This document shows, in pieces, positions 1 through 11,033 of a stretch of 11,033 nt of DNA. This DNA comes from Elusimicrobiota bacterium. Lineage in GTDB: Bacteria > CG03 > SLGR01 > PWQF01. How positions within the stretch are numbered: the stretch's first letter is position 1; each line of letters begins with the position of its first letter. A model generated the notes under the pieces. That model ran no database searches. It was not told the DNA's origin and saw only the letters and a program-made list of their open reading frames with translations. Location: the NCBI GenBank assembly GCA_003557485.1, contig PWOI01000116.1, positions 1 to 11,033 on the forward strand. Reading direction: 5' to 3'. Made by a program: the position numbers and the translations under genes.

Positions 1-678
1 CCTCTCGATGAAATAAAAATTGTTTCCAGTCTCCGGGATATCATAGGTGCTGCCGGCAAAGAGAAGTTAAAAATAACTGCTATCCAGCAGAAGATCCTGC
101 CCGGCTGTGGCGGTGATACAGCAGAAGAACTTGCTTCATCCCGATGGTTCGCCGACAGAATGCCCCCTACGGTAAAACAGAACCTTGTTAATGTTGAGAA
201 AAGGCTCCTTAAAGAAAACAAAATTCCGGCTGGGGTTGTATATCACGGTTTAAAATACCGGGAAATTTTAATAAAAGAAAATAAGGAATACGGCCGTCGC
301 GGCTTCCTGACAGTTTTCATAACTCCCCGGATTCTGGCTACATCTGAGGCCCCCTGGGGAAGTCCCCACATCAGAACTGTTCTTTTAGGGGCTCCCGCCG
401 TAATTTCCAGCAGGGGGATTACAATGGGCCCGGCCCGGGCCCGGGACTCAATCCATAAGGAAGAAAACGGTATAAGCAAAGATACCATTGAAAAAATAGC
501 CGGATCCCTTCTTTTGCAGGCCATTTTTTACCGTTTTCTTGGGGAAGGGCTCTGTCCTCTCTCGGACTGCTGCATTTATAATCCTCACTGGCGCGATGAG
601 ATGATTAAAGCCCTGGGACCTGGGGCAGCGCTCTGTAAAGAACATTTAAGAAGGTTGGAGGAATGGCTTAATACTTGA
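1..678 (+). CDS. 3' part of an uncharacterised protein, DUF6775-like (putative metallopeptidase family)
   Basis: The frame is open from the first base of the window to TGA at 676-678, so the gene starts upstream and 225 C-terminal residues are visible. The Met at base 160 is internal; coding continues before it with no break. Two blocks look conserved: a strand-rich block around visible residues 102-148 (FITPRILATS, then IRTVLLGAPAVISSRGI and a GPARARDS segment), and a C-terminal block around 181-202 reading GLCPLSDCCIYNPHWRDEM. From memory this pattern resembles the DUF6775 proteins, mostly archaeal and labelled putative metallopeptidases. No HExxH zinc site appears in the visible part, so any peptidase role is unproven. 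Three clustered cysteines (about 185, 190, 191) with His and Trp nearby could bind metal. The stop overlaps the -35 box of the next gene, so it is probably transcribed separately from cysK. Confidence 0.6.
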   Translation, partial: PLDEIKIVSSLRDIIGAAGKEKLKITAIQQKILPGCGGDTAEELASSRWFADRMPPTVKQNLVNVEKRLLKENKIPAGVVYHGLKYREILIKENKEYGRRGFLTVFITPRILATSEAPWGSPHIRTVLLGAPAVISSRGITMGPARARDSIHKEENGISKDTIEKIAGSLLLQAIFYRFLGEGLCPLSDCCIYNPHWRDEMIKALGPGAALCKEHLRRLEEWLNT

Positions 679-703
679 CAAGTATAAATTTATTTTATAT
701 ATA
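675..703 (+). promoter_or_regulatory. Likely sigma-70-type promoter of cysK and the following genes
   Basis: A perfect -35 TTGACA lies at 675-680. Seventeen bases later TATATA (698-703) can serve as -10, or TATATT at 700-705 with a 19-base spacer. The -35 overlaps the stop codon of the upstream gene. The very AT-rich leader of about 70 bases carries an 11-base direct repeat (723-733 and 756-766) before the ribosome binding site AGGAGG at 766-771. Confidence 0.6.
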
Positions 704-778
704 TTAAATATAAGTTAAATAATAATATTTAAAACTTTTATATGGTGTAGGAATTTAATATTTAAAGGAGGAATAAAA

Positions 779-1699
779 ATGAGTATAAGTAAAAGTATTA
801 CAGAAACCGTAGGGAGTACTCCAATAGTAGAACTTGGAAAAATATCAAAGGGAGTTGGCGCCAGGATAGTTGCAAAGGTAGAATCCTTCAATCCATTAGG
901 AAGTGTAAAGGACAGGATTGCAGCGGCAATGATAGAAGCAGCTGAGAAGTCCGGAAAGATCCAACCGGAAACAACTATTATAGAGCCTACTTCGGGAAAT
1001 ACCGGCATAGCCCTGGGGTTTGTCTGCGCAGCCCGCGGGTACCGGCTTATATTGACAATGCCCGAAACCATGAGTATAGAACGCAGGAGGCTTTTAAAGG
1101 CTTTGGGAGCAGAACTCATACTTACCCCTGGAGAAGGGGGGATGAAAGGTGCCGTTATAAGGGCGGAAGAGGAAAGCCTGGCTATAAAAAATTCCTTTGT
1201 GCCTCAGCAATTTAAGAACCCGGCAAATCCGGAAATTCATCGCAGGACCACTGCGCAGGAAATACTTAAAGCCACGGGTGGAGATGTAGATATACTTGTT
1301 TCCGGCGTGGGTACAGGTGGAACCATAACAGGGGTTTCAGAAATACTTAAACAAAAAAACAAAAATTTTCATACTGTGGCTGTAGAGCCTGCAGAGTCAC
1401 CCGTTCTTTCCGGAGGACAGCCGGGTCCTCATAAAATACAGGGGATAGGGGCGGGTTTTGTGCCCGATGTCCTGAATGTGGAAATAATAGATGAAATCCG
1501 CCAAGTTGGTTCTGAAGAAGCCATGGAATACGCCAGAAGGCTTGCAAAAGAAGAGGGCATATTTGCGGGAATATCATCCGGGGCTGCTGTTGCTGCCGCT
1601 GTAAAAACAGCAAAAAAAGAAGAAAACAGAGGTAAAAATATTCTTGCAATACTCCCGGACCTGGGGGACAGGTACCTGTCCACTAATATTTTTGATTAG
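779..1699 (+). CDS. cysK: Cysteine synthase (O-acetylserine sulfhydrylase)
   Basis: This PLP enzyme makes L-cysteine from O-acetylserine and sulfide in the cytoplasm. The 306-residue length is normal for CysK. The PLP lysine is K44 in NPLGSVKDR, the substrate loop TSGNTG is at 71-76, the phosphate-binding loop GTGGT at 178-182, the conserved GIGAGFVP at 222-229, and the SSG that contacts the PLP ring at 266-268. All expected catalytic parts are present. The start is supported by AGGAGG at 766-771, seven bases before ATG. It is the first gene after a clear promoter and is followed in the same direction by a cysteine-rich secreted protein, a thioredoxin, a permease and an Fe-S protein, so the operon may link cysteine supply to thiol or metal chemistry. 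CysM or a cystathionine beta-synthase-like role is possible, but the sequence fits CysK best. Confidence 0.93.
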
Positions 1700-1748
1700 G
1701 AAGGCACTCTATTAAAAGAGAGGATATTTGTGTAAATAGGAGGAAAAA

Positions 1749-2066
1749 ATGAGGAAAATACTGTTTATTACATCGGTCATGTTTTTTGGTCTGGCCGCCA
1801 TTATTATGGGCGCAGGTCGCAGGGCGCCGGAGGAAGGGTTACACTGCCGTGCTCATGGGACAATTGGAAAAGACGCTGGCTGTTACCATCATGAACATTT
1901 CTTGAAAGAGGATGGCTGCACTATTCGCGGATCGAAAGAGGAAGAAATAGGAATGCAGGCTGTCTGCGCTAAGATGGATAGGGAGTTTACGGTTGATGAA
2001 AACACCAAAATAGTTGAATGTAAGGACGGTTCGGTAAAATACCTGTGCTGTCCGGCCTGTAAATAA
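1749..2066 (+). CDS. Small secreted cysteine-rich protein, probable metal or thiol binder
   Basis: I do not recognise a named family. The 105-residue protein starts with a signal-peptide-like segment (basic MRK, hydrophobic about 4-20) followed by GAGRRAPEE. The mature part is about 80 residues with eight cysteines (33, 45, 57, 73, 91, 100, 101, 104) and a His cluster (32, 36, 47, 48, 50). It ends in YLCCPACK, which recalls the FCCxxC ends of YHS-type and other metal-binding domains. Export to the periplasm or membrane surface is inferred. The ribosome site AGGAGG (1738-1743) lies five bases before ATG. It sits 49 bases after cysK and 60 before a thioredoxin-like gene whose product shares the GAGR-x-x-PE motif at the same place, so the two probably act together. 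It could bind soft metals or be a redox substrate of its neighbour. Confidence 0.8.
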   Translation: MRKILFITSVMFFGLAAIIMGAGRRAPEEGLHCRAHGTIGKDAGCYHHEHFLKEDGCTIRGSKEEEIGMQAVCAKMDREFTVDENTKIVECKDGSVKYLCCPACK

Positions 2067-2126
2067 AACCAGGCATATTCTGTTTTTCCCGGATTCGTAT
2101 TATAATAGAGAAAAAGGAGAAAGACT

Positions 2127-2585
2127 ATGTTTTTAAAAATTGTATCAGTAATAGTGATGTCAGCTTTGTTGACCGGAGCGGGCCGTATGGGTCCGGAATC
2201 CGATGAGATTGAGCAGTATTCTCCATCGGTAGATGAAGAATACAAAATGCAGATTAACTGGATTTATAATCTGCAGGAAGGACTGGATGCGGCCGCTGAG
2301 AAAGAGAAGCCGCTTATGGTATATTTCGGCGCAGACTGGTGTGTTTGGTGCAGAAGAATGGAAAATGAAACCTATGCCGATCCGAAAGTAATTGAACTCT
2401 CTGAGTATTTTGTAAGTGTTAAGATAGATACGGATGACAACCCGGAAGTTGCGCGCGAGTACGGAGTCCGGGGGCTGCCTATAGTTATATTTATGGACTC
2501 AGATGGTGAGATTATTGAGAGAGTGTCGGGCTATCGGGATGGCGCTGCTTTTGCCTCGGTAATGATGTCATTTGTAGACCGTTAA
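2127..2585 (+). CDS. Secreted thioredoxin-like protein (WCVWC active site)
   Basis: This 152-residue protein has an N-terminal hydrophobic export signal (about 2-16), a short linker, and one thioredoxin fold from about residue 46 to the end. The redox motif CVWC is at 72-75 in FGADWCVWC, and the cis-proline follows at P118 in VRGLPIVIF. The layout resembles the thioredoxin_7/DUF255 and DsbD C-terminal type rather than cytoplasmic TrxA, whose motif is WCGPC. It probably reduces or rearranges thiols in the periplasm; likely partners are the cysteine-rich protein before it and the permease after it. AAGGAG (2114-2119) gives the start with seven-base spacing. TATAAT at 2101-2106 might be an internal promoter, but no good -35 is present. 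Residues 17-24 (GAGRMGPE) match the preceding protein's post-signal motif. Confidence 0.88.
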   Translation: MFLKIVSVIVMSALLTGAGRMGPESDEIEQYSPSVDEEYKMQINWIYNLQEGLDAAAEKEKPLMVYFGADWCVWCRRMENETYADPKVIELSEYFVSVKIDTDDNPEVAREYGVRGLPIVIFMDSDGEIIERVSGYRDGAAFASVMMSFVDR

Positions 2586-2603
2586 ACGAAAGAATATGCA
2601 GAT

Positions 2604-3494
2604 ATGATAAGAGAGTTTTTTGAAGTATTTTTAGCATACCTTAGCGGTATAATTCTGCCCCTGGCAGCCGGTTTTACGGTCAGCGGAGCCATTCAGGAGT
2701 TTGTTCCTCAAAGATGGATTGAAGAAAGACTGGGAGGAAAAGGTTTTCTTCCCATACTCTATTCTTCAATGATAGGAGCGGTAATACCTGTCTGCTGCTG
2801 GGGTTCTCTTCCCATTGCAGTTACTTTTCACAGGAAAGGCGCTTCGCTGGGCCCGGTATTTGCCTTTCTTATAGCCACCCCGGCCACTTCCCTGAGCGCT
2901 CTTTTTGTATCCTGGAGGTTTTTGGGGCTCTTTTTCACTGCCTATGTTTTTGCAGCAGTCATACTGATCGCCCTGATTGCAGGAATTACAGGGAGATGGA
3001 TAAAACATAAAAGAAAAGACTCCATTGCAGATGGAACAGAAATAAAAAAGGACGGCTGCTGCGCTATGAAGGTAAACAGGAGTATTAAAACACGCATCAC
3101 TGCAGTCTTTAAGTACGCTTTTATAAAAATGCCCAGAGATATAGGGCTTGAACTTCTTATTGGTATGGGCCTTGCGGCTTTTGTAGTTACCTTTGTTCCG
3201 GTTGGTAGACTTATAGAAGTATTTCTCTCCGGAGGGTCTGCATATATATTTTCGGTTGTTTTCGGGCTGCTTGTTTATATGTGCTCAACGGCAAGCGTTC
3301 CTCTTGTCCACGCCTTTATAGGGCAGGGTATGGCAGCCGGGGCAGCAATGGCCCTTCTTATTATAGGACCCGTAGAAAGCTACGGGACCATACTGGTTTT
3401 GAAAAAAGAATTCGGGTTCCGGGTACTGCTCTTTTACCTGGTTCTTGTATCGGCTGGTGCTGTAGCGGCAGGCTTTATCTTTTCGCTGATATAA
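2604..3494 (+). CDS. Membrane permease of the ArsP/DUF318 (PF03773) type
   Basis: This 296-residue inner-membrane protein has about eight hydrophobic segments in two halves, separated by a charged cytoplasmic-type loop (about 131-167). The first half carries IPVCCWGSLPIAVTFHRKG (62-79), then GPVFAFLIATPATSLSAL. The second half carries VYMCSTASVPLVHAFIGQGMAAGAAMALLIIGPVESYGT. This two-fold plan with cysteines in a helix and the ATPATS and GP motifs is typical of DUF318 permeases. Characterised relatives include ArsP, which exports trivalent organoarsenicals, and SO_0444-type proteins annotated as Cu/Zn efflux. The substrate here is unknown. The vicinal pairs C64-C65 and C152-C153 could bind a soft metal or metalloid. 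The ribosome site is weak and the gene starts 18 bases after the thioredoxin stop, so it may depend on translation of that gene. Confidence 0.82.
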   Translation: MIREFFEVFLAYLSGIILPLAAGFTVSGAIQEFVPQRWIEERLGGKGFLPILYSSMIGAVIPVCCWGSLPIAVTFHRKGASLGPVFAFLIATPATSLSALFVSWRFLGLFFTAYVFAAVILIALIAGITGRWIKHKRKDSIADGTEIKKDGCCAMKVNRSIKTRITAVFKYAFIKMPRDIGLELLIGMGLAAFVVTFVPVGRLIEVFLSGGSAYIFSVVFGLLVYMCSTASVPLVHAFIGQGMAAGAAMALLIIGPVESYGTILVLKKEFGFRVLLFYLVLVSAGAVAAGFIFSLI

Positions 3495-3541
3495 TAATGC
3501 ATTATAAGCTGCAGGGTATAAAAAACAGCTAAGGAGGAAAG

Positions 3542-4414
3542 ATGAGCGAAAAAGTTATGAGAGAAGTTATTAAGATTGATGAGGATCTATGCAACGGATG
3601 CGGAGAATGCGTTCCGGCCTGTCCCGAGGGCGCTATACAGATTATAGACGGCAAGGCAAGGCTGATAAGCGATCTTTTATGCGACGGGCTTGGGGCTTGT
3701 CTGGGTGAATGTCCCCTTGATGCAATAACCATTGAAAAAAGGCCCGCCGAACCATATGACGAAAAAGCAACAATGGAAAATGTTATAAAACACGGAGAAA
3801 ACACCGTAAAGGCCCACCTTAAGCACTTAAAGGATCACGGTGAAGATGAATACCTGAAGGAGGCTCTCGATTTTCTTGAGGAGCGGGGCATTGAGAATCC
3901 GCTCAAGGAAGAAAGTAGTGGGGGTGTAGAGAAAAAACATGGTCCGGGCATGCCGTCCGGCTGTCCCGGGGCAAGAGTAATGGATTTCAGCAGCAGGCAG
4001 GAATCTCCTTCATCAGGCGGAGAGAATATACCGTCACAGCTGCGTCAGTGGCCGGTACAGCTTCACCTTGTTCCGCCGACTGCTCCATATTTCAAAAATG
4101 CGGATGTCCTGCTTTCGGCTGACTGCGTGGCTTATGCCCTTGGAAATTTTCACTCTAAATATTTGAAGGGAAAATCCGTTGCCATTGCCTGTCCGAAACT
4201 TGATGAAGGCCAGGATGTGTATGAAAATAAACTGACGGCTATGATAGACGAAGGGGGAATAGATACCCTTACTGTTATGATAATGGAAGTTCCCTGCTGC
4301 CGCGGGTTGCTCGCTCTTTCCCAGAGGGCTTTAGAAAAGGCTCAAAGAAAAATTCCCCTGAAAGTAATTATTGTGGGAATCAACGGAGAAATAAAAACAG
4401 AGGACTGGATTTAA
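3542..4414 (+). CDS. Ferredoxin-type 4Fe-4S protein with an extra C-terminal domain
   Basis: This is a 290-residue cytoplasmic protein. Residues 10-66 form a ferredoxin-like domain. The first cluster site is canonical (C17, C20, C23, C27 in CNGCGECVPACP). The second reads CDGLGACLGECP, with C47, C53 and C57 but Leu at 50 where a cysteine would be. A charged, low-complexity linker (about 68-165) leads to a C-terminal domain starting near QLRQWPVQLHLVPP (167-179), with further cysteines at 195, 217, 252 and 253 (VPCCRG). Proteins of this layout occur in anaerobes and are usually annotated only as 4Fe-4S ferredoxins; an electron-transfer role is likely but the partner is unknown. AAGGAGG at 3531-3537 supports the start, although the spacing is short at four bases. 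It is the last gene of the plus-strand group and converges on nfo. Confidence 0.85.
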   Translation: MSEKVMREVIKIDEDLCNGCGECVPACPEGAIQIIDGKARLISDLLCDGLGACLGECPLDAITIEKRPAEPYDEKATMENVIKHGENTVKAHLKHLKDHGEDEYLKEALDFLEERGIENPLKEESSGGVEKKHGPGMPSGCPGARVMDFSSRQESPSSGGENIPSQLRQWPVQLHLVPPTAPYFKNADVLLSADCVAYALGNFHSKYLKGKSVAIACPKLDEGQDVYENKLTAMIDEGGIDTLTVMIMEVPCCRGLLALSQRALEKAQRKIPLKVIIVGINGEIKTEDWI

Positions 4415-4430
4415 AACCGGAAAATATTTG

Positions 4431-4463
4431 AAAAATTCTCTTAGGGTTAATCTTCCCTTAGAG
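4431..4463 (-). terminator. Intrinsic terminator after nfo
   Basis: Read on the minus strand, CTCTAAGGG (4463-4455) pairs with CCCTAAGAG (4446-4438) across an eight-base loop, 8 of 9 pairs matching, and AATTTTT follows (4437-4431). The hairpin overlaps the last codons and stop of nfo. On the plus strand the stem is followed by ATTTAAG, so it would be a weak terminator for the converging Fe-S gene. Confidence 0.65.
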
Positions 4464-5235
4464 ATTTAAGAAGGTTTATGTTTTTGAGGTCTGCTTCTTT
4501 TCCTCCCGGGGTTTCGATTATAAAAGCTTTCTCCTTCCATAACGGGCTGTTTATTACTGAAGCAAACCGGCTTATACCGATACTTCCTTCCCCTATGCCG
4601 GCATGCATATCCGAATGAGACCCGAAGCCGGTCTTTGAATCATTTACATGAATAAGCCTGGTATAAGGAGCAAGGTCTTCCATATCCTCCATAGAAAACC
4701 CTGCCTGGAAGGCATGGGCCGTATCTATACAGAATCCGGCTTGGAGGCCGAGCCGGTCCCTTAACTGCAGAAGTTCTTCAGGTGAATTTCCCATCTGGTT
4801 TCCGCTGCCTGCAGTATTTTCAATCAGCAGTTTTGTTTTTGGAGCCCTTTCTGCAGTAACGGTTTTGAATGCGGAAACAATCTGTTTTATGCCGTCCTTC
4901 TTATTTATTGAACTTCCCGGATGAAGCACAAGATAATCGGCATTCAGCATATCCGCCCTTTGAAATTCGGTCTTAAGGGCGATGACAGATTTGTCGTAAA
5001 TCTCTCCCTGGCCGGCTATGTTTATAAGGTACGGCGCGTGTATAAATAGAGGCCCAATACCGTGTTTTTCTCTAAGTGCTGTAAACTCTGCAGCTTTCTT
5101 TTTATTTATGGGTTTGCGGGCCCATCCGCGGGGATTTCCAGAGAATATCTGGAGAGTATTACCTCCCGTGTAAAGAAGGTATTCAACGGTTTTGGCGTAA
5201 CCCCCCGAAACCGGACAGTGAGGGCCTATTCTCAT
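4447..5235 (-). CDS. nfo: Endonuclease IV (AP endonuclease, zinc-dependent)
   Basis: This enzyme cuts DNA 5' of abasic sites in base-excision repair using three zinc ions in a TIM barrel. All nine metal ligands known from E. coli Nfo have counterparts: H66 (FIHAPY), H105 (LVLHPGS), E139 (IENTAG), D171 and H174 (CIDTAHAFQAG), H196 (HVNDSK), D209 and H211 (SDMHAGIGEG) and E241 (IIETPG). At 262 residues it is slightly shorter than E. coli Nfo (285). The frame is open farther upstream to 5424, but that stretch lies within znuB and is not Nfo-like. The ATG at 5235 overlaps the znuB TGA in an ATGA junction and has AGGAA just before it, so it is the better start. Being the last gene of the zinc operon is unusual and suggests nfo expression follows zinc status. 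Confidence 0.94.
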   Translation of the reverse strand: MRIGPHCPVSGGYAKTVEYLLYTGGNTLQIFSGNPRGWARKPINKKKAAEFTALREKHGIGPLFIHAPYLINIAGQGEIYDKSVIALKTEFQRADMLNADYLVLHPGSSINKKDGIKQIVSAFKTVTAERAPKTKLLIENTAGSGNQMGNSPEELLQLRDRLGLQAGFCIDTAHAFQAGFSMEDMEDLAPYTRLIHVNDSKTGFGSHSDMHAGIGEGSIGISRFASVINSPLWKEKAFIIETPGGKEADLKNINLLKSLRED

Positions 5236-6029
5236 TTCCTGCGGACCAACTTTACTAAAGGCCGCACCATAGCAAATAAAGCCAGCACTATCATAAGAAG
5301 CGGCCCGAAAGGCTGGTCGCCCAGAACCGCCGCGGCAAAAGAGACCAGGTATGCCGCAACTGCGATTAAAACGCTGACAGCAAGAGACTTTTTCCAGCCG
5401 TCCACAATTACAAATCCAATCCAAGGCGGAACAAAAAACATTGCAAATGCCGGGAAAGCTCCTATTGAAACTGTTCCCAGGACCGCAGAGAAAACTACCA
5501 GTCCGGCAAATATAATACGGTGAGGAAAGGCCGCGATATTATTAGCTGAGTAGTAATCAGGGAAAAACCTTTCCGTAAGAAGCCTTTTTGAGAGCCATTT
5601 CAATACCGCAAGAAGAAAGACCAGAAGTATCAGAGCTCCGGCAAGGTGGCCGCCGTGAGTGAAATAAAGCTGTCCTCTTAGGAATGTTTCCCCGGCAACT
5701 TCACCGTGATACGTATTTGCGGCAAGGAGCAGCGATGCCGCCCACCCTAATATTATCATCATTGCGTAATGGCTGTTGCCGCTTTTGGGGTTAAGGTCTT
5801 TAATTAGAGCTGCCCCTGCAGCAGCAGCAACGGCGGTAAAGATAACCGGCACCCCTAGGGCCACTCCGGCAACTGCTCCTGCCGCTGATATCTGGGAAAT
5901 TCCCAGGGCCGAAAGCCATTCCTCCCTCATTTTAAGAAAACCTCCTATAAGGCTCAGGGCAGCTGCCAGGCAGAGTCCTGTCAGAAGGGGAACCCTGAAA
6001 AGGGGATCAAAAAGTATAAAATCGTTCAT
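5232..6029 (-). CDS. znuB: Zinc/manganese ABC transporter membrane subunit, ZnuB-like
   Basis: This 265-residue inner-membrane permease of the ABC-3 family has about eight hydrophobic segments across its whole length. Family features include the N-terminal PLFRVPLLTGLCLAAALSLIGGFLKMREEWLSALGISQISAAG, the central GNSHYAMMIILGWAASLLLAAN and the late SIGAFPAFAMFFVPPWIGF. It would form the channel through which ZnuC drives metal received from ZnuA. Its ATG overlaps the TGA of the ATPase gene (ATGA at 6026-6029) and its own TGA overlaps the nfo ATG, so translation of the three genes is probably coupled. Zinc is preferred as substrate because of the Fur-family gene, the His-rich outer-membrane protein and the zinc enzyme Nfo nearby, but manganese transporters share this fold and cannot be excluded from sequence. 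Confidence 0.9.
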   Translation of the reverse strand: MNDFILFDPLFRVPLLTGLCLAAALSLIGGFLKMREEWLSALGISQISAAGAVAGVALGVPVIFTAVAAAAGAALIKDLNPKSGNSHYAMMIILGWAASLLLAANTYHGEVAGETFLRGQLYFTHGGHLAGALILLVFLLAVLKWLSKRLLTERFFPDYYSANNIAAFPHRIIFAGLVVFSAVLGTVSIGAFPAFAMFFVPPWIGFVIVDGWKKSLAVSVLIAVAAYLVSFAAAVLGDQPFGPLLMIVLALFAMVRPLVKLVRRK

Positions 6030-6592
6030 GACAGTTCAATAATCCTTTCGCAGTGTTTTTCTAGAAATGGCTTCTCGTGGCTTACAAGAATAACAGACCG
6101 GTGCGGGTCGTGGTTCTCAAGAAGCACGGATAGTTCGTCTATAGCATCCCCGTCAAGGTTGTTTGTCGGTTCGTCCAGCAGCACAAGGTTTGCAGGACCG
6201 GCAAGGCATGCCGCGGTCTGGAGGAACTGGAACTGCCCACCGCTCATCCTGCTGAGAGGGACATCAAGCAGGCAATGTATCCTGTCGGATGATTTGTCGG
6301 GGTCTGCTCCCAGAAGGGAGAAGAGTTCCCTGCCCAGAAGGGCAAGCTCCGGGGGGAGTTCCGGTCTCTGCCAGTGGTGGGTTATCTGGGTATGTGGAGC
6401 TTTTTTTATTCTTCCCGAGAATATCCGGGCCGCTCCCGTAATAGCTCTCAGGAGCGTCGATTTGCCCGAGCCGTTAGGCCCTCCCAGCCCAATTATATGC
6501 CCCTCCTCAATAGCAAAGGATACGGGACCCGTAACGGGCCCCGTATACCCTGCACGCAGGTTCTCTACCTTAAGCAGTTCTACTGATTTCAT
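6026..6592 (-). CDS. znuC: Zinc/manganese ABC transporter ATPase, ZnuC-like, short
   Basis: This cytoplasmic ATPase powers ZnuB. All ATP-site parts are present: aromatic Y16, Walker A GPNGSGKST (38-46), Q-loop Q75, signature MSGGQ (116-120, Met replacing the usual Leu), Walker B NLVLLDEPT (135-143) and switch H172. At 188 residues it is clearly shorter than typical ZnuC (about 250): the chain ends soon after the H-loop and lacks the usual C-terminal extension. The start chosen is the ATG at 6592, one base after the znuA stop and preceded by GGGAA; an in-frame ATG at 6628 would reach into znuA and adds residues unlike the family. The stop overlaps the znuB start. Confidence 0.9.
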   Translation of the reverse strand: MKSVELLKVENLRAGYTGPVTGPVSFAIEEGHIIGLGGPNGSGKSTLLRAITGAARIFSGRIKKAPHTQITHHWQRPELPPELALLGRELFSLLGADPDKSSDRIHCLLDVPLSRMSGGQFQFLQTAACLAGPANLVLLDEPTNNLDGDAIDELSVLLENHDPHRSVILVSHEKPFLEKHCERIIELS

Positions 6593-6593
6593 A

Positions 6594-7475
6594 TTAATTT
6601 CCCGACAGTGCCTCCACCCACCTGTCAATCATTTGAAAGTAGTCTTCTGCGTCTGCATCGACAGGTACCTGTGTCGGAAGCCGGTATGCAGGCCAACCCA
6701 GCTGAGATGACATAAACTCCGGTCCCCGGGAGGGCTGAAATAGAATATAGGTTATGACCCCGTCTTTATCCCTGAGACTGCGCACCAGGTCCCGCAGGTG
6801 AGATGCGGTCGGAGGTATGCCGGGAAGCAACTCTATATGGTTATGTATTGGAATATTCAGGCGCCTGAAGAGATAGTTGGCATCCCCGTGATAGGGAAGA
6901 ACCCCTTCCACCGCAGCTTTTTCTTTCCAGCGGTTCATTCTTTCTTTAACCTTGTTTTCAAACTCCAGGGCGTTTTGCCTGTAATATTCGGCATTATCGC
7001 TGTCAATTGACTCTAGCCTCCGGGCAAGGGCATGGCCCACTTTGGCCAACTTAACCGGGTCCAGGTCAAAGTGGGGGTTTCCGGCGGGGTGAACATCTCC
7101 CCGGGAACGGTCAGCTATTTCTTTTTCTATAAGTTCAATGTGAGCCGCACCCTCAAAATACCCGGTCCTTCCGGTCTGTATGGTGGGGTTGTTGGCTCCC
7201 CGTATCGCTGCCGGCAGCCATCCTATCTCCAGTTCGGCTCCCACGGCTACCACCAGGTCGGCCCTTCTCAAGGCCGCCATCATCGAGGGCCTTGCATCCA
7301 GGTAATGTGCATCCCTGTCGGGCGGAGTCATTACCGTAACATTGACCTTCTCTCCTCCTATCTCCCTGGCAAGCATACCCATATTGGGAACCGTTGCCGC
7401 CACGTTTACCCTGCCGGCTGCCCATGAAGGGGCAACTGTAAGGCAGAATAAGATTGATATAAACAGTTTAACCAT
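6594..7475 (-). CDS. znuA: Periplasmic zinc/manganese-binding protein, ZnuA-like
   Basis: This 293-residue solute-binding protein of the ZnuA/TroA (cluster A-I) family has a signal peptide ending near SWA-AG (residue 19/20). Expected metal ligands are H57 (DRDAHYLDARPS), H135 (GNPHFDLDP), H196 (LPYHGDANYLFRRLNI) and an acidic residue near 273-275 (PVDADA). The connecting helix is present around 155-186. The His-rich loop seen in many zinc-specific ZnuA proteins is short here (only H129 and H135), and the His-rich role may be taken by the outer-membrane barrel encoded just upstream. AAGGAG (7485-7490) with nine-base spacing supports the start. It lies 44 bases after the barrel gene and one base before znuC. 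Zinc is inferred from context. Confidence 0.9.
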   Translation of the reverse strand: MVKLFISILFCLTVAPSWAAGRVNVAATVPNMGMLAREIGGEKVNVTVMTPPDRDAHYLDARPSMMAALRRADLVVAVGAELEIGWLPAAIRGANNPTIQTGRTGYFEGAAHIELIEKEIADRSRGDVHPAGNPHFDLDPVKLAKVGHALARRLESIDSDNAEYYRQNALEFENKVKERMNRWKEKAAVEGVLPYHGDANYLFRRLNIPIHNHIELLPGIPPTASHLRDLVRSLRDKDGVITYILFQPSRGPEFMSSQLGWPAYRLPTQVPVDADAEDYFQMIDRWVEALSGN

Positions 7476-7519
7476 TTTTATTTTCTCCTTATTTTAACTT
7501 CTATCACAATAAATTAATC

Positions 7520-8893
7520 TCAGAACGTATGGGCGCCGTGAACGCCCAAACTTACGTTATACTGAAGCGCGAATTTCCATCCGCCGTTTCCGTGGCTGTG
7601 TCCGTTTCCATTTTCTTCGGCAGGATCATAATAACTTGCCTGGAGGCGGAACCTGGAAAACTCCGTGGGCGCATAGCTTACCTGTCCGGTATATCTCATT
7701 GAAGGGTCGTTCTTCATCCGATCAGCCTCTTCGTAGGATCTGTTGGTAAGGCCAAGCATGTCGAAGCGCAGCCCCGCATTCCACCTGGGCGCAAAACCGT
7801 ATACTCCCTGCAGGTAGAGGCCATCCTGTTGCCAGAGCTGGTCTTTCTCATCTAAAATTTCAAGAGTTGAAAAATCACTGAAATTGCGATTTTTATACTT
7901 CAGATCCAGCTGGCGGTACATATATTCTCCCTGGAGAACCAGGTTACCGTGGCCCATGGTTCCCTGCCCGTTATATTTATAAACGATATCAACTCCGCCG
8001 AAGGAGCTCTCCCCGTCCCAGGTTTCAAGCCGGCCGCTTGAATGGGCGTCTTCGGCCTGAAATGCCCGGCCGTATCCTCCCCAGAGGCCAAGCTGGACGG
8101 CATGGTCAAACCCTATGTCCGGCCCCCATTTGAGAAAGCCTGTGTAGAGGCGGGGTGATTTTATATCGTCAAACCCCATATCGGCACGCCAGCGGTTCCT
8201 GACAGGTTTGTTATTTCCGTCTGGAGTTACAGTGACTATTTGATGATTTTTTTCTCCCACATAATTTGCCACTCCTTCGGATTTCCCTTCAAGAATCTCT
8301 ATACCCAAACGGGTATATGAGGCCGTGGGGGGCATCCAGGAGAGCTGAAGGCCCAGTTCGGTAAGCCCGTGGTCTCCGAGAAGATATTCATTCATCCAGG
8401 GCCGGTCAATAAAAAGCCAGTCGTGGGGATGCTGTTTGTTTATATATCCTGTATCACTCATAAACTTGCCGGCTTTCATTCCAAGTCCTGCCGGGAGCAA
8501 GCGGGAGGTTATATAGCCTTCCTCAATCTCTGCGCCGTGCTCTGACAGGGCCAGCATCAGCATCATATCAAAGTAGGGGTCCAGCGCGCCGGCAAATGTT
8601 AACTCTGCTTCCCGCAGCGCAAACCCTTCCGATATCCCGTGATCATGGTCGTGACCGTGACCGTGGCAATGGGCCAGCTCGTATCCTTCCGGCTCGCCTA
8701 TCCCGTCTTCAAAATATCCGTATGTGAAATCCAGAATGACAGATATCTCGGGGTTGAAGAGGGTGCCGGCTCCTACGGGAACGTCGCCTCCCGATCGGAG
8801 CGTTCCAACTCTGGTCTCCTGCGCCATGGCAGGACCAGTCGCGGCGCCGGTTAAAAAGAGGGCGCAGCTTATAAATTTAAATGTTTTATTCAT
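7520..8893 (-). CDS. Outer-membrane beta-barrel protein with His-rich segment, probable zinc porin
   Basis: The 457-residue protein has a signal peptide (MNKTFKFISCALFLTGAATGPAMA, cleavage near 24/25), no TonB-box plus plug domain that I can see, and alternating aromatic and polar strands typical of a porin-like barrel. The last residue is Phe, the usual C-terminal signal for barrel assembly. Near the N-terminus, residues 75-86 read HCHGHGHDHDHG, and a second small cluster GHSHG is at 431-435. Both could be metal-catching loops. Directly upstream of znuA, it most likely brings zinc across the outer membrane, similar in place though not in fold to the TonB-dependent ZnuD. It could instead be a structural OprO/OprP-like porin. 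The best ribosome site, AAAGGA (8908-8913), is rather far from ATG at 14 bases. Confidence 0.8.
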   Translation of the reverse strand: MNKTFKFISCALFLTGAATGPAMAQETRVGTLRSGGDVPVGAGTLFNPEISVILDFTYGYFEDGIGEPEGYELAHCHGHGHDHDHGISEGFALREAELTFAGALDPYFDMMLMLALSEHGAEIEEGYITSRLLPAGLGMKAGKFMSDTGYINKQHPHDWLFIDRPWMNEYLLGDHGLTELGLQLSWMPPTASYTRLGIEILEGKSEGVANYVGEKNHQIVTVTPDGNNKPVRNRWRADMGFDDIKSPRLYTGFLKWGPDIGFDHAVQLGLWGGYGRAFQAEDAHSSGRLETWDGESSFGGVDIVYKYNGQGTMGHGNLVLQGEYMYRQLDLKYKNRNFSDFSTLEILDEKDQLWQQDGLYLQGVYGFAPRWNAGLRFDMLGLTNRSYEEADRMKNDPSMRYTGQVSYAPTEFSRFRLQASYYDPAEENGNGHSHGNGGWKFALQYNVSLGVHGAHTF

Positions 8894-8933
8894 AGTATCT
8901 ATAATTTTCCTTTATTATATTCGTTATCTAAAG

Positions 8934-8957
8934 GCATGCCTGATTATACAGGCATGC
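8934..8957. promoter_or_regulatory. Perfect 9-base dyad around TATAAT: barrel/znu promoter-operator or hairpin
   Basis: GCATGCCTG (8934-8942) and CAGGCATGC (8949-8957) are perfect inverted repeats around ATTATA, which reads TATAAT on the minus strand. One reading is a minus-strand -10 box with an operator on both sides; transcription from about 8936 would give a leader that includes AAAGGA at 8908-8913. No good -35 is seen. The other reading is a terminator for plus-strand RNA, because T6 follows at 8958-8963. It also lies between the small membrane gene and the barrel gene and could attenuate read-through. Confidence 0.5.
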
Positions 8958-8991
8958 TTTTTTGAACCTGATTATTTTGTTTGGGGAAATG

Positions 8992-9288
8992 TTAAACTAG
9001 TGCCGGGGGTGCGCGGGAAAAGGGGGTGTTTATTTCCCTGAAAATTCTTGCGGTCTTAAGAACAGTTTCTTTAAAGTGGCCGGAAGCCGCGGCTTCAAGA
9101 GATGCTATCGCAAATGCGGCTGATACGGCGCATATATCCAGAAACGCCCTCAGGGGGCAGTTTGAGGCGTGGTCATGCTCGTCTCCTATTTCGGTGAGAT
9201 GGTGGCCGGCTGCGATAAACGAAGCGTTTATTGAAACGGTTGCAAAGAATGCAAATAAAACGGCGGCTGTTTTAAGATTCCGGTTCAT
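8992..9288 (-). CDS. Small His/Cys-containing membrane protein coupled to fur
   Basis: No family is recognised. The 98-residue product starts MNRNLKTAAVLFAFFATVSI, a hydrophobic stretch (about 7-28) that may be a signal or a transmembrane helix. A short metal-ligand-like stretch follows: HH at 31-32, HDH at 41-43 and cysteines near 48 and 57 in ASNCPLRAFLDIC. A second hydrophobic stretch (about 57-73) precedes a basic tail. The frame reaches back to ATG codons at 9300 and 9309, but ATG at 9288 overlaps the fur TGA as ATGA, the junction style seen elsewhere in this block, so I prefer it. Location beside a zinc-type regulator and transporter suggests metal sensing, storage or delivery at the membrane; this is inference from ligands and context. 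Confidence 0.6.
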   Translation of the reverse strand: MNRNLKTAAVLFAFFATVSINASFIAAGHHLTEIGDEHDHASNCPLRAFLDICAVSAAFAIASLEAAASGHFKETVLKTARIFREINTPFSRAPPALV

Positions 9289-9716
9289 TTTGCCCGGCAT
9301 TGACTGCATATTCCATAAACCGTCATATCATGATACTCAGGTTTAAATCCCTTGCTTTTTGCCATGGAGTCTATGAGGGAGTCTATTTTTCTGTCTATAA
9401 CCTCAAAGGCTCTGGCACAGTAATTGCAGACCATGTGGTCATGGTGCTTATGAAGGAAACGGTGCTCGTAGCGGGTTATCCCGTCTGCAAAGTTTACCTC
9501 CTGGGCCAGTCCGCAGTCACACAGAATCTTCATTGTGCGGTAAACTGTAGCTCTGCCGGTTCCGGGGCTTTCTTTTTTTACTATATCGTAGAGCTCTTCG
9601 GCAGTCAGGTGTTTTTCAGTCTTAAGAAAACTGAATAACACATCCTTTCTCCGGGAACTCTGTTTCAGGCCGTTTTTTTTAATATAGTTATTTAATAGGG
9701 TTTCTTCTTTTCTCAT
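9285..9716 (-). CDS. fur: Fur-family metal-responsive repressor, probably Zur-like
   Basis: This 143-residue regulator has an N-terminal winged helix (about 10-85), with recognition helix GRATVYRTMKIL at 54-65, and a C-terminal dimerisation domain. The structural zinc site is two CxxC pairs (C97/C100 and C137/C140). The sensory region is unusually His-dense: H85, H89, H91, H92, H94 and H129 (YEHRFLHKHHDHMVC and EYHDM). Glu at 105 replaces the Asp that marks peroxide-sensing PerR, so PerR is unlikely. Zinc sensing is suggested by the downstream zinc operon, but Fur and Zur cannot be separated safely by eye. AAAAGGA gives a good start. Its own promoter carries a perfect 7-1-7 box, so autoregulation is likely. 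The same transcript may run through the whole zinc block. Confidence 0.9.
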   Translation of the reverse strand: MRKEETLLNNYIKKNGLKQSSRRKDVLFSFLKTEKHLTAEELYDIVKKESPGTGRATVYRTMKILCDCGLAQEVNFADGITRYEHRFLHKHHDHMVCNYCARAFEVIDRKIDSLIDSMAKSKGFKPEYHDMTVYGICSQCRAK

Positions 9717-9734
9717 TTCTAATCCTTTTGATTT

Positions 9735-9749
9735 TGATACTCAGTATCA
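9735..9749. promoter_or_regulatory. 7-1-7 Fur-family operator
   Basis: TGATACT-C-AGTATCA is a perfect 15-base palindrome that differs from the common Fur-family pattern TGATAAT-N-ATTATCA at one symmetric pair. It lies 19-33 bases before the fur start codon and covers the end of the -10 box and the expected transcription start, where a bound repressor would block fur transcription. Confidence 0.75.
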
Positions 9750-9774
9750 TAATTCATTTGAAAAGATTTGTCAA
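9746..9774 (-). promoter_or_regulatory. Promoter of fur and the zinc block
   Basis: On the minus strand, TTGACA (9774-9769) and TATGAT (9751-9746) are separated by exactly 17 bases, close to the sigma-70 consensus. The -10 box overlaps four bases of the Fur-type palindrome. Confidence 0.75.
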
Positions 9775-9880: not shown

Positions 9881-10498
9881 ATGAAGTATTTAGAACTTAA
9901 ACAAAAATTATCGGAGCATATAATATTCTCCCTTGCCGACATCGCTAAGCTGGATCCAAATTTTTATAACTCGAGGTTATACGAGTGGAAGAAGAAGGGT
10001 TATATTAAAAAAATAGCGAAAGGGCTCTATATCTTTTCAGATACCGGTATTGATGAGAACACTCTCTTTTATATAGCAAACAAGTTGTATCATCCGTCTT
10101 ATGTATCTCTTGAAATGGCCCTGTCATACTATGATCTGCTGCCAGAAACTGTTTTCAGCATAACATCTGTATCAACCAGAAGGACATACAGTTTTAATAC
10201 ATTTGCCGGCAACTTCAATTACAGGAGTATTAAACCGGAGTTGTTTTTCGGATACCGGATAGTCAGGGTAAAGAGTAACGTAGTTTATAAGCTGGCGGAG
10301 CCGGAAAAGGCGCTTCTGGATTTTCTTTATTTTAACCCTCATTACTACAGGCTGAGAGATTATGAAGAGCTTAGAATCAACAGCGAAATGTTCCGTGAGA
10401 ACATAGAAGAAGAAAAACTCCTGTATTATCTTGACAGGTTTTCGCAGAAGAAACTGACTGAAAGAGTAAATAAATTATTGAGGTATCTAAATGATTAA
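9881..10498 (+). CDS. abiEi: Type IV antitoxin and autorepressor, AbiEi family
   Basis: This 205-residue protein has an N-terminal winged helix-turn-helix (about 1-55, ending in the wing YIKKIAKGLYIFSD) that would bind the dyad just upstream. The C-terminal antitoxin domain shows the family pattern HPSYVSLEMALSYYDLLPE (71-89), SVSTRRTYSFNTFAGNFNYRSIKPELFFGY (about 96-125) and KALLDFLYF (143-151). In this family the antitoxin opposes the toxin without a stable complex and represses the operon. The toxin gene follows with an eight-base overlap, the usual order. No good ribosome site precedes ATG 9881; the promoter predicts a leader of only about 35 bases. Base composition is visibly more AT-rich than the zinc block, which fits mobile defence cargo. 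Confidence 0.88.
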   Translation: MKYLELKQKLSEHIIFSLADIAKLDPNFYNSRLYEWKKKGYIKKIAKGLYIFSDTGIDENTLFYIANKLYHPSYVSLEMALSYYDLLPETVFSITSVSTRRTYSFNTFAGNFNYRSIKPELFFGYRIVRVKSNVVYKLAEPEKALLDFLYFNPHYYRLRDYEELRINSEMFRENIEEEKLLYYLDRFSQKKLTERVNKLLRYLND

Positions 10499-11033
10499 TA
10501 TAGAACACCTTATAAGTTTTTATCCGGATAATTTAAAACCCTTCAGGAAAAATATACTTCGCGAGTATCTGCAATATAAGGTTCTGGATATAATATATAA
10601 CTCTAAATATAATCGTAATCTTATATTTATGGGAGGTACTTCCATAAGGATTATTCATAAAAACACAAGATTCTCCGAAGACCTGGATTTTGATAACAAA
10701 GGCATTTCAGCACAGGAGTTTACGGAACTGGCGGAAGATATAAAAAAAAGCCTGGAACTTGAAGGATATAAACCTGAAATAAAAGTAACAAAGAAAGGAG
10801 CTTATAAATGTAGTCTCAAATTTCCGGGAATTCTGTTCCAGACAGGTATTTCCGGTCACCGCGAAGCAAAACTTGTCATCCAGATTGATACGGAACCGCA
10901 AAATTATGAATATGAGCCTCAGAGTGAGTTAATAAACAAGTTTGAAGTATTTACCAGTATATTTACAGTGCCTGTAAATTTGCTTCTTTCTCAGAAAATA
11001 TACGCGGTATTTACAAGAAAGAGGCCTATGGGA
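10491..11033 (+). CDS. abiEii: Type IV toxin AbiEii, nucleotidyltransferase (5' part)
   Basis: The ATG at 10491 overlaps the abiEi stop by eight bases and the frame stays open to the window end, giving 181 residues; the C-terminus is missing. Motif I is GGTS (48-51) followed by RFSEDLDFD (60-68), which supplies the catalytic acidic residues of the DNA polymerase beta-type nucleotidyltransferase fold. Further family marks are the third acidic site in VIQID (129-133) and QKIYAVFTRKRP near 168-179. AbiEii toxins use nucleotides and stop growth; the related MenT toxins act on tRNA 3' ends. With AbiEi it forms a system linked to phage abortive infection and to stabilising mobile elements. All motifs visible here are intact, so the toxin looks functional as far as it can be read. 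Confidence 0.88.
   Translation, partial: MINIEHLISFYPDNLKPFRKNILREYLQYKVLDIIYNSKYNRNLIFMGGTSIRIIHKNTRFSEDLDFDNKGISAQEFTELAEDIKKSLELEGYKPEIKVTKKGAYKCSLKFPGILFQTGISGHREAKLVIQIDTEPQNYEYEPQSELINKFEVFTSIFTVPVNLLLSQKIYAVFTRKRPMG

Follow-up and report, generated by a model that had tools for sequence, protein, structure and literature searches.

Among the closest described systems to the one considered here are several with permeases of the Pfam family PF03773. Of the ArsP proteins, such as that of the Campylobacter jejuni type, every surveyed member is reported to carry C(S/T)C within a transmembrane helix (PMC4435449). The SO_0444 gene of Shewanella is needed under Zn and Cu stress, and its mutants are sensitive to both metals, as shown for SO_0444 itself (PMC3219624); in Nitratiruptor, Cd and Cu induce a member of the same family (PMC10092412). 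The SAO (Sec-assisted organometallic) system combines the permease SaoE with the thioredoxin-like SaoT and the small Cys-Cys protein SaoC. The present text concerns a further PF03773 permease, encoded within a run of thiol-related genes on contig PWOI01000116.1 (C60) of an Elusimicrobiota bacterium (GCA_003557485.1). The window, meaning the whole stretch of DNA analysed, is this entire 11,033-bp contig, taken from a 2.07-Mb draft genome that is 87% complete. The permease falls into a distinct clade, members of which stand beside genes of cysteine and iron-sulfur (Fe-S) cluster biogenesis in several phyla. The chances are about even that it is an exporter of soft metals of the Zn/Cu class and the core of a thiol/Fe-S protection cluster. 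The genes and sites concerned are the following (all on the + strand; aa, amino acids).

1..678, +, DUF6775/DUF7001 protein, probable metallopeptidase, 5′ end off the contig (PF20565 93.2 bits, PF22529 76.3 bits; SDCCIY motif)
779..1699, +, cysK, cysteine synthase A (TIGR01139 449 bits, cut-off 351)
1749..2066, +, small protein of 105 aa with 8 Cys and a hydrophobic N-terminus (iterated profile match, alignment A3)
2127..2585, +, thioredoxin-fold protein with a CVWC active site and a hydrophobic N-terminus (PF03190 63.6 bits, PF13098 60.4 bits)
2604..3494, +, PF03773 permease of the CC-type clade (143.5 bits, cut-off 32.3)
2793..2798, +, codons of the permease invariant C64-C65 (VCCWG; 71/71 sequences)
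2991..3083, +, permease central loop, aa 130-160, with DGCCAM (alignment and Pfam YHS scan of relatives)
3282..3284, +, codon of the permease invariant C227 (MCSTAS; 72/72 sequences)
3542..4414, +, two-[4Fe-4S] ferredoxin-type protein with a conserved C-terminal domain (CPKLD, PCCRG; PF00037 44.5 bits)

The PF03773 match covers residues 2-294 of the 296 residues of the permease. Against NF033936, the model of the SO_0444 Cu/Zn efflux family, the window permease scores 191.8 bits, which is under the curated cut-off of 300; this model is nevertheless the best NCBIfam match of all 60 clade members scanned (best E 7.8e-73), and an annotated SO_0444 protein, L193, reaches 357.6 bits (E 7e-107). In a tree of 81 rows the window permease lies within a single clade of 72 with support of 100/100, separate from the other PF03773 proteins and from the annotated SO_0444 protein. 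The signature of the clade, P-x-C-C-x-G, holds the invariant C64-C65 and stands where the ArsP and SO_0444 types have C-(S/T)-C. On these sequence comparisons, the clade is a PF03773 type of its own, apart from both. It shares with SO_0444 the PF03773 fold; L193 differs in having CSC instead of CC and in carrying a C-terminal CopZ-like domain. SaoE is likewise homologous, and the SAO system as the identity of the window cluster was rejected, because the SaoE score (111.6 bits, cut-off 325) is far too low and the partner genes are absent; the other window products belong to different families, and no SAO protein besides the permease homologue is found there. Sequence searches of the PDB with the permease gave no relative, and a search of plasmids returned distant permeases only.

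The main evidence on function comes from the gene neighbourhoods of the clade. The loci compared were drawn from 30 of a public genome scan and from 334 Omnitrophota-, 247 Elusimicrobiota-, 395 'Deltaproteobacteria'- and 74 WOR-1/Margulisbacteria-centred genomes, the group names following the titles of the central records. These are mostly metagenome-assembled genomes with mechanical gene calls. A neighbour was any gene within four same-strand genes of the permease, and two sets of markers were used: cysteine/homocysteine synthesis (cysK, cysE and HcyBio/DUF39) and Fe-S assembly or sulfur relay (nifS, nifU, nadA, mnmA and larE). The markers were assigned by blastp against one or two references per family, so that the counts are probably lower bounds for orthologues and may include paralogues. 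Neighbours of either kind occur at 40 of the 71 distinct clade loci and in 21 of the 38 clusters formed at 70% identity, while about 3-4 of 71 loci would be expected by chance from 352 background genes. Among 11 control loci scoring under 200 bits (L164-L172, L077 and L078) one has such neighbours; two of these controls, L164 (175 bits) and the fragment L078, are really clade members, and this contamination, if it has any effect, makes the comparison conservative. The marker genes were picked from the first loci. Among the 42 loci fetched after that choice, 25 carry markers (binomial P about 2e-23 at the upper background rate, ignoring relatedness). When the sulfur-only label is placed on the tree, at least 11 gains or losses are required, and shared descent alone therefore does not explain the sulfur linkage.

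The neighbours are close and their order differs between the phyla. Genes adjacent to or overlapping the permease gene (gap of at most 60 bp) encode MnmA and HcyBio in 8 cases each, NadA in 7, NifU in 6, LarE in 5 and NifS in 4. The Omnitrophota have the order Rrf2-cysK-HcyBio-permease-small protein-CcdA-TlpA, the phylum of the window itself has nadA-nifU-permease-mnmA, and WOR-1/Margulisbacteria have Rrf2-nifS-nifU-permease-mnmA; larE-permease-nifS is a further recurrent arrangement. A protein of about 75 aa between the permease and CcdA in the Omnitrophota was considered as a thioredoxin and rejected, being a short anchored protein of no family. The frequent Omnitrophota neighbour HcyBio (DUF39) is known from homocysteine synthesis together with NIL-ferredoxin (PMC5764234), which is not a transport system and has no genes in the window. 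Recurrence in unrelated genomes, a check proposed in an earlier note made on this DNA from its sequence alone, thus holds for the core, the permease being linked to cysteine/Fe-S genes in Omnitrophota, Elusimicrobiota-like bacteria, WOR-1/Margulisbacteria, Desulfobacterota, Myxococcota, Chloroflexota and ANME-1. A search of open-licence literature found no description of this permease clade or of its cysteine/Fe-S linkage, and no exporter genetically tied to cysteine and Fe-S biogenesis.

A second group of neighbours points to metals. YHS proteins or metal-efflux genes, including CusB/CusA, CopA and ArsR-ACR3, stand near the permease at 14 loci. The earlier note had suggested a neighbourhood search for the small protein beside PF03773 permeases; YHS proteins do stand next to permeases of the clade, and YHS domains are fused within some of them. 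Rarer iron-related neighbours are Fur directly 5′ of the permease (L064, L128 and L133), FeoB close by (L128 and L133), and, downstream of the permease, a ferritin and a Fur-family gene (L144).

The loop between the two halves of the permease is rich in Cys and His in most clade members (CPHC...HxHxH or similar). A YHS-type domain lies in this place in L057, L060, L070, L071 and L164, from Myxococcota, Chloroflexota, ANME-1 and further members: the domain is complete in L057 (Myxococcota, 64 bits), L060 (Chloroflexota, 49) and L070 (ANME-1, 53) at a cut-off of 30.3, and L071 shows a pattern like YHS. The DGCCAM of the window permease belongs to this loop and looks like the opening half of the YHS motif (DPVCGM), to which it may be related by descent. 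Since the loop has nine Lys/Arg residues, a cytoplasmic position is suggested. A second fusion with a metal module is found in L127 (5560-6768), where the permease homologue ends in a cupredoxin-like extension (profile match to residues 310-402, ICSIYCGSGH); an extension of the same type comes after the YHS domain in L078 and L048.

An AlphaFold model of the permease, built with 60 sequences (mean pLDDT, the predicted local distance difference test, 89), has two repeats with one broken helix each, and C64-C65 and C227 are placed at the two breaks. Among solved structures, the arsenite pump ArsB comes closest (Z 14.3, 271 residues, 4.7 angstroms), followed by the SLC13-type/elevator-type carriers NaCT (Z 13.0) and INDY (12.4); a Z of about 14 can be reached by chance for helical models, and the likeness to ArsB is to be read as a lead. 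Foldseek alone gave no match for this model at E <= 0.001.

The small protein upstream also bears on metals. Scanned alone, it has no Pfam match above cut-off, YHS included, and no NCBIfam match. Secreted YHS-type proteins of the same phylum and of Omnitrophota can be aligned with its C-terminal half, where AVCAKM takes the place of CPVM/CPVT and YLCCPACK that of YxFCCPxC; the iterated profile match to these proteins is 2.5e-21. In alignment A3, made with 12 YHS-like proteins, C73, C100 and C104 are invariant and C101 is nearly so; the relatives L054 and L078 match Pfam YHS. With the family profile, phenol hydroxylase is matched in its YHS region at 1e-6, and there are weak matches to eL24 and MYM fingers. 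These three are treble-clef metal sites of related folds. The alignment and profile matches therefore indicate that what had been called an eight-Cys protein is, in its C-terminal half, a shortened YHS/TRASH-like putative metal-binding protein. It shares with the YHS/TRASH domains (PF04945 and relatives) the C-P-x-M ... Y-x-F-C-C-x-x-C pattern, which is also seen in the loop-fused permeases, but it stops after the last Cys and is below the Pfam model by itself. Foldseek of its structure model, confident over the last ~55 residues only, found no match in the PDB. The thioredoxin-fold protein encoded next is most like the DsbD C-terminal and DUF255 domains (PRK00293, DsbD, 64.9 bits, below cut-off). 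From their hydrophobic N-termini, both proteins are predicted to be secreted, and both may have roles in metal handling. A DsbD_TM gene lies on another contig of the same genome (C210), and its product could feed electrons to the predicted secreted thioredoxin.

Based on these observations, a model of the cluster can be proposed. A metal ion with an affinity for thiols, such as Zn(II) or Cu(I), would reach the inward-facing permease through the Cys/His loop, which some relatives have in the form of a fused YHS domain. The ion would then be held in a three-thiolate site made up of the invariant C64-C65 and C227, where the two helices are broken, and an elevator-type movement would release it outside. 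There, the small secreted YHS-like protein may bind the metal, while the secreted thioredoxin would keep its vicinal cysteines reduced. CysK and the Fe-S ferredoxin in the window, and the products of nifS, nifU, nadA, mnmA and HcyBio elsewhere, would rebuild the thiol and Fe-S pools that metals attack. The main targets of zinc in E. coli are IscU, IscA and ferredoxin (PMC6495748). Such targets fit the permease neighbours NifU, NadA and ferredoxins. The effect of copper and other soft metals on Fe-S assembly proteins is commonly taken to be like that of zinc. For a soft-metal transporter with thiolate ligands that stands beside NifU, NadA, MnmA, ferredoxins and CysK, protective metal export is therefore the simplest account.

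Several observations weigh against such metal export. The background for the expected counts consists of only 352 genes. Both sulfur and metal neighbours occur together at 7 of the 71 loci, so that most sulfur-linked loci have no metal-resistance gene, and 24 loci have neither kind. Four endomicrobial permeases (L074-L076 and L158) have a loop without Cys and almost without His, and because of them metal binding by the loop is not essential. Similarity of fold to ArsB does not give the substrate, which for the CC-type clade, like the direction of transport, is a proposal from relatives and context. Beside the window cluster there is no metal regulator, and upstream of it no copy of a Fur-type palindrome.

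A reading in terms of sulfur is the main competitor: the permease would carry a small sulfur compound (sulfide, persulfide, thiosulfate or cysteine) and would feed or vent the pool used by CysK, HcyBio, NifS and MnmA. In addition, the secreted thioredoxin, or TlpA/CcdA in Omnitrophota, would reduce external disulfides or persulfides and release the sulfur compound. The strongest neighbours, HcyBio, CysK, NifS, MnmA and LarE under Rrf2 regulators, are indeed users of sulfur, metal genes occur in a minority of loci, a dozen loci of Omnitrophota have CcdA and TlpA after the permease, and some permease loops lack Cys/His. In L050, among the nearest relatives of the window permease, a YedE-type sulfur transporter and a rhodanese-fused reductase are encoded ahead of the permease. 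Such transport, however, has no obvious place for the fused YHS domains, the CPHC/His loops or the CusA, CopA, ArsR-ACR3, Fur and Feo neighbours, and the tested relatives carry metals or arsenicals; it is considered doubtful, though worth keeping in view. Movement of iron, in or out, supplying or balancing Fe(II) for cluster assembly, is the third choice and quite improbable. It could draw on the Fur, FeoB and ferritin neighbours and on the use of iron by NifU, NadA and ferredoxins, but these loci number only about four, Fe(II) transport does not usually rely on vicinal thiolates as ligands, and the copper, arsenite and YHS contexts would be left unexplained.

Arsenic, which the earlier note had emphasised for a set that would trap, reduce and export a metalloid or metal, is the least likely of the readings, because the C(S/T)C motif is absent, as it is from all clade members, and the genome has a separate cassette of ArsR, CSC-type ArsP permease and ArsE/MTH895-like thioredoxin (L047 1621-3349, contig C193). 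Pfam and NCBIfam scans found no ars gene in the window, and an arsenic operon was rejected on these three grounds. Membership in PF03773, with cysteines at the equivalent transmembrane place, ArsB as the closest fold, and ArsR-ACR3 beside 2 of the 71 relatives (L067 and L071) would speak for an ArsP-type exporter of organoarsenicals or As(III), which is nonetheless highly improbable; the clade differs from ArsP in having CC and a cysteine/Fe-S context, not that of an ars operon. Of the proposed metal(loid) export, the soft-metal part fits.

The set in the window could also be a loose chain of housekeeping genes, namely a cysK operon, a permease cassette and a ferredoxin, adjacent without a joint function. 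A fixed five-gene system, as first envisaged, is not borne out: no other locus holds all five genes, genome G014 has DUF6775-cysK...Fe-S without the permease, and the usual setting of the Fe-S protein is an Rrf2-FeS-Hcp group. The one same-genus genome examined has no CC-type permease. Against mere adjacency, the cysK, YHS, thioredoxin-fold and FeS genes each recur by the permease in other phyla, and L153 has Rrf2-CysK-FeS-permease-MnmA-LarE with CusB-CusA further on. The loose chain is held to be an unlikely explanation. The window joins pieces that recur separately elsewhere and, in L153, partly together.

Returning to metal export as the preferred reading, it is tentatively proposed, at somewhat less than even chances, that the undescribed P-x-C-C-x-G clade is dedicated to guarding cysteine/Fe-S biogenesis, or to supplying it with sulfur, in ANME-1 archaea and in bacteria of candidate phyla. 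Rrf2 or Fur would control it, and its metal-binding modules would be interchangeable: the Cys/His loop, the fused YHS domain and the separate secreted YHS protein. If metals are exported, the clade would be a built-in shield for the Fe-S machinery of anaerobic candidate phyla and a third type within PF03773 besides ArsP and SO_0444, and many proteins annotated only as 'permease' would gain a testable role. If sulfur compounds are moved, it would be a missing sulfur transporter beside sulfide-using enzymes.

The five adjacent + strand genes from cysK to the Fe-S protein have the identities and coordinates reported earlier; of the span then given, 675-4414, the end holds and the start falls inside the DUF6775/DUF7001 gene upstream, which runs to 678. 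The gaps from cysK to the small protein, thioredoxin, permease and Fe-S protein are 49, 60, 18 and 47 bp, and the genes may be co-transcribed; in a promoter scan of window positions 600-4500 the signals were no more frequent than in shuffles. The Cys-Cys motifs LCCPAC, VCCWG, GCCAM, PCCRG and SDCCIY are all found in the translations. The shared cysteine chemistry described for the five genes applies to these motifs and is a loose term for CysK, with one Cys, and for the thioredoxin, with two. Composition alone gives at least one CC in 44% of the shuffled sequences for the small protein and in 37% for the Fe-S protein, so that their CC counts are unremarkable; the figures are 6.7% for the permease and 8.8% for the upstream protein. 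CC occurs in 17 of 311 background proteins from related genomes. What exceeds chance is the conservation of CC throughout a family, as for the permease C64/C65 (71/71 alignable sequences) and the Fe-S protein C252/C253 (8/8).

In alignment A4 of the Fe-S protein family, further C-terminal cysteines besides this PCC pair are invariant. The gene follows an Rrf2 regulator and precedes a hybrid-cluster protein (Hcp) in L044, L045 and L046, and stands beside the permease in L123, L153 and L078; L042 and L043 were also among the loci of this family examined for neighbours. The window protein is 45-74% identical to members of the Rrf2-ferredoxin-Hcp groups, whereas the window has neither Rrf2 nor Hcp. 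The order DUF6775-CysK is found again in G014 (L043 12371-14059). The DUF6775/DUF7001 gene (window 1-678; L043 12371-13138) is directly 5′ of cysK in two genera, with the motif DCC(I/L)YNPHWR conserved.

The adjoining part of the window, 4447-9716 on the - strand, looks like a zinc-uptake cluster, with genes for an endonuclease-IV-like TIM barrel protein and ZnuB-, ZnuC- and ZnuA-like components of a zinc importer. It also includes the following genes.

7520-8893, -, His-rich 457-aa protein (GHGHDHDHG) with a signal-like N-terminus and no Pfam match, likely outer-membrane
8992-9309, -, small protein in the zinc-uptake-like cluster
9285-9716, -, Fur-family regulator in the zinc-uptake-like cluster

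Directly upstream of the Fur-family gene lies a near-perfect palindrome, ATTTTGATACTCAGTATCATAAT (9731-9753), with the core TTGATACTCAGTATCA at 9734-9750, present as a single copy in the window and a putative Fur/Zur-type operator. Shared Fur/Zur control of the thiol cluster and the znu genes was rejected, as TTGATACTCAGTATCA is absent from the cluster and confined to the region upstream of the fur-like gene. The remaining part, 9881-11033, holds a probable type IV toxin-antitoxin pair: a gene for an AbiEi-like antitoxin (NF047376 42.6 bits, cut-off 150) is followed by one for a nucleotidyltransferase-like AbiEii toxin, recognised by eye and cut by the contig end.

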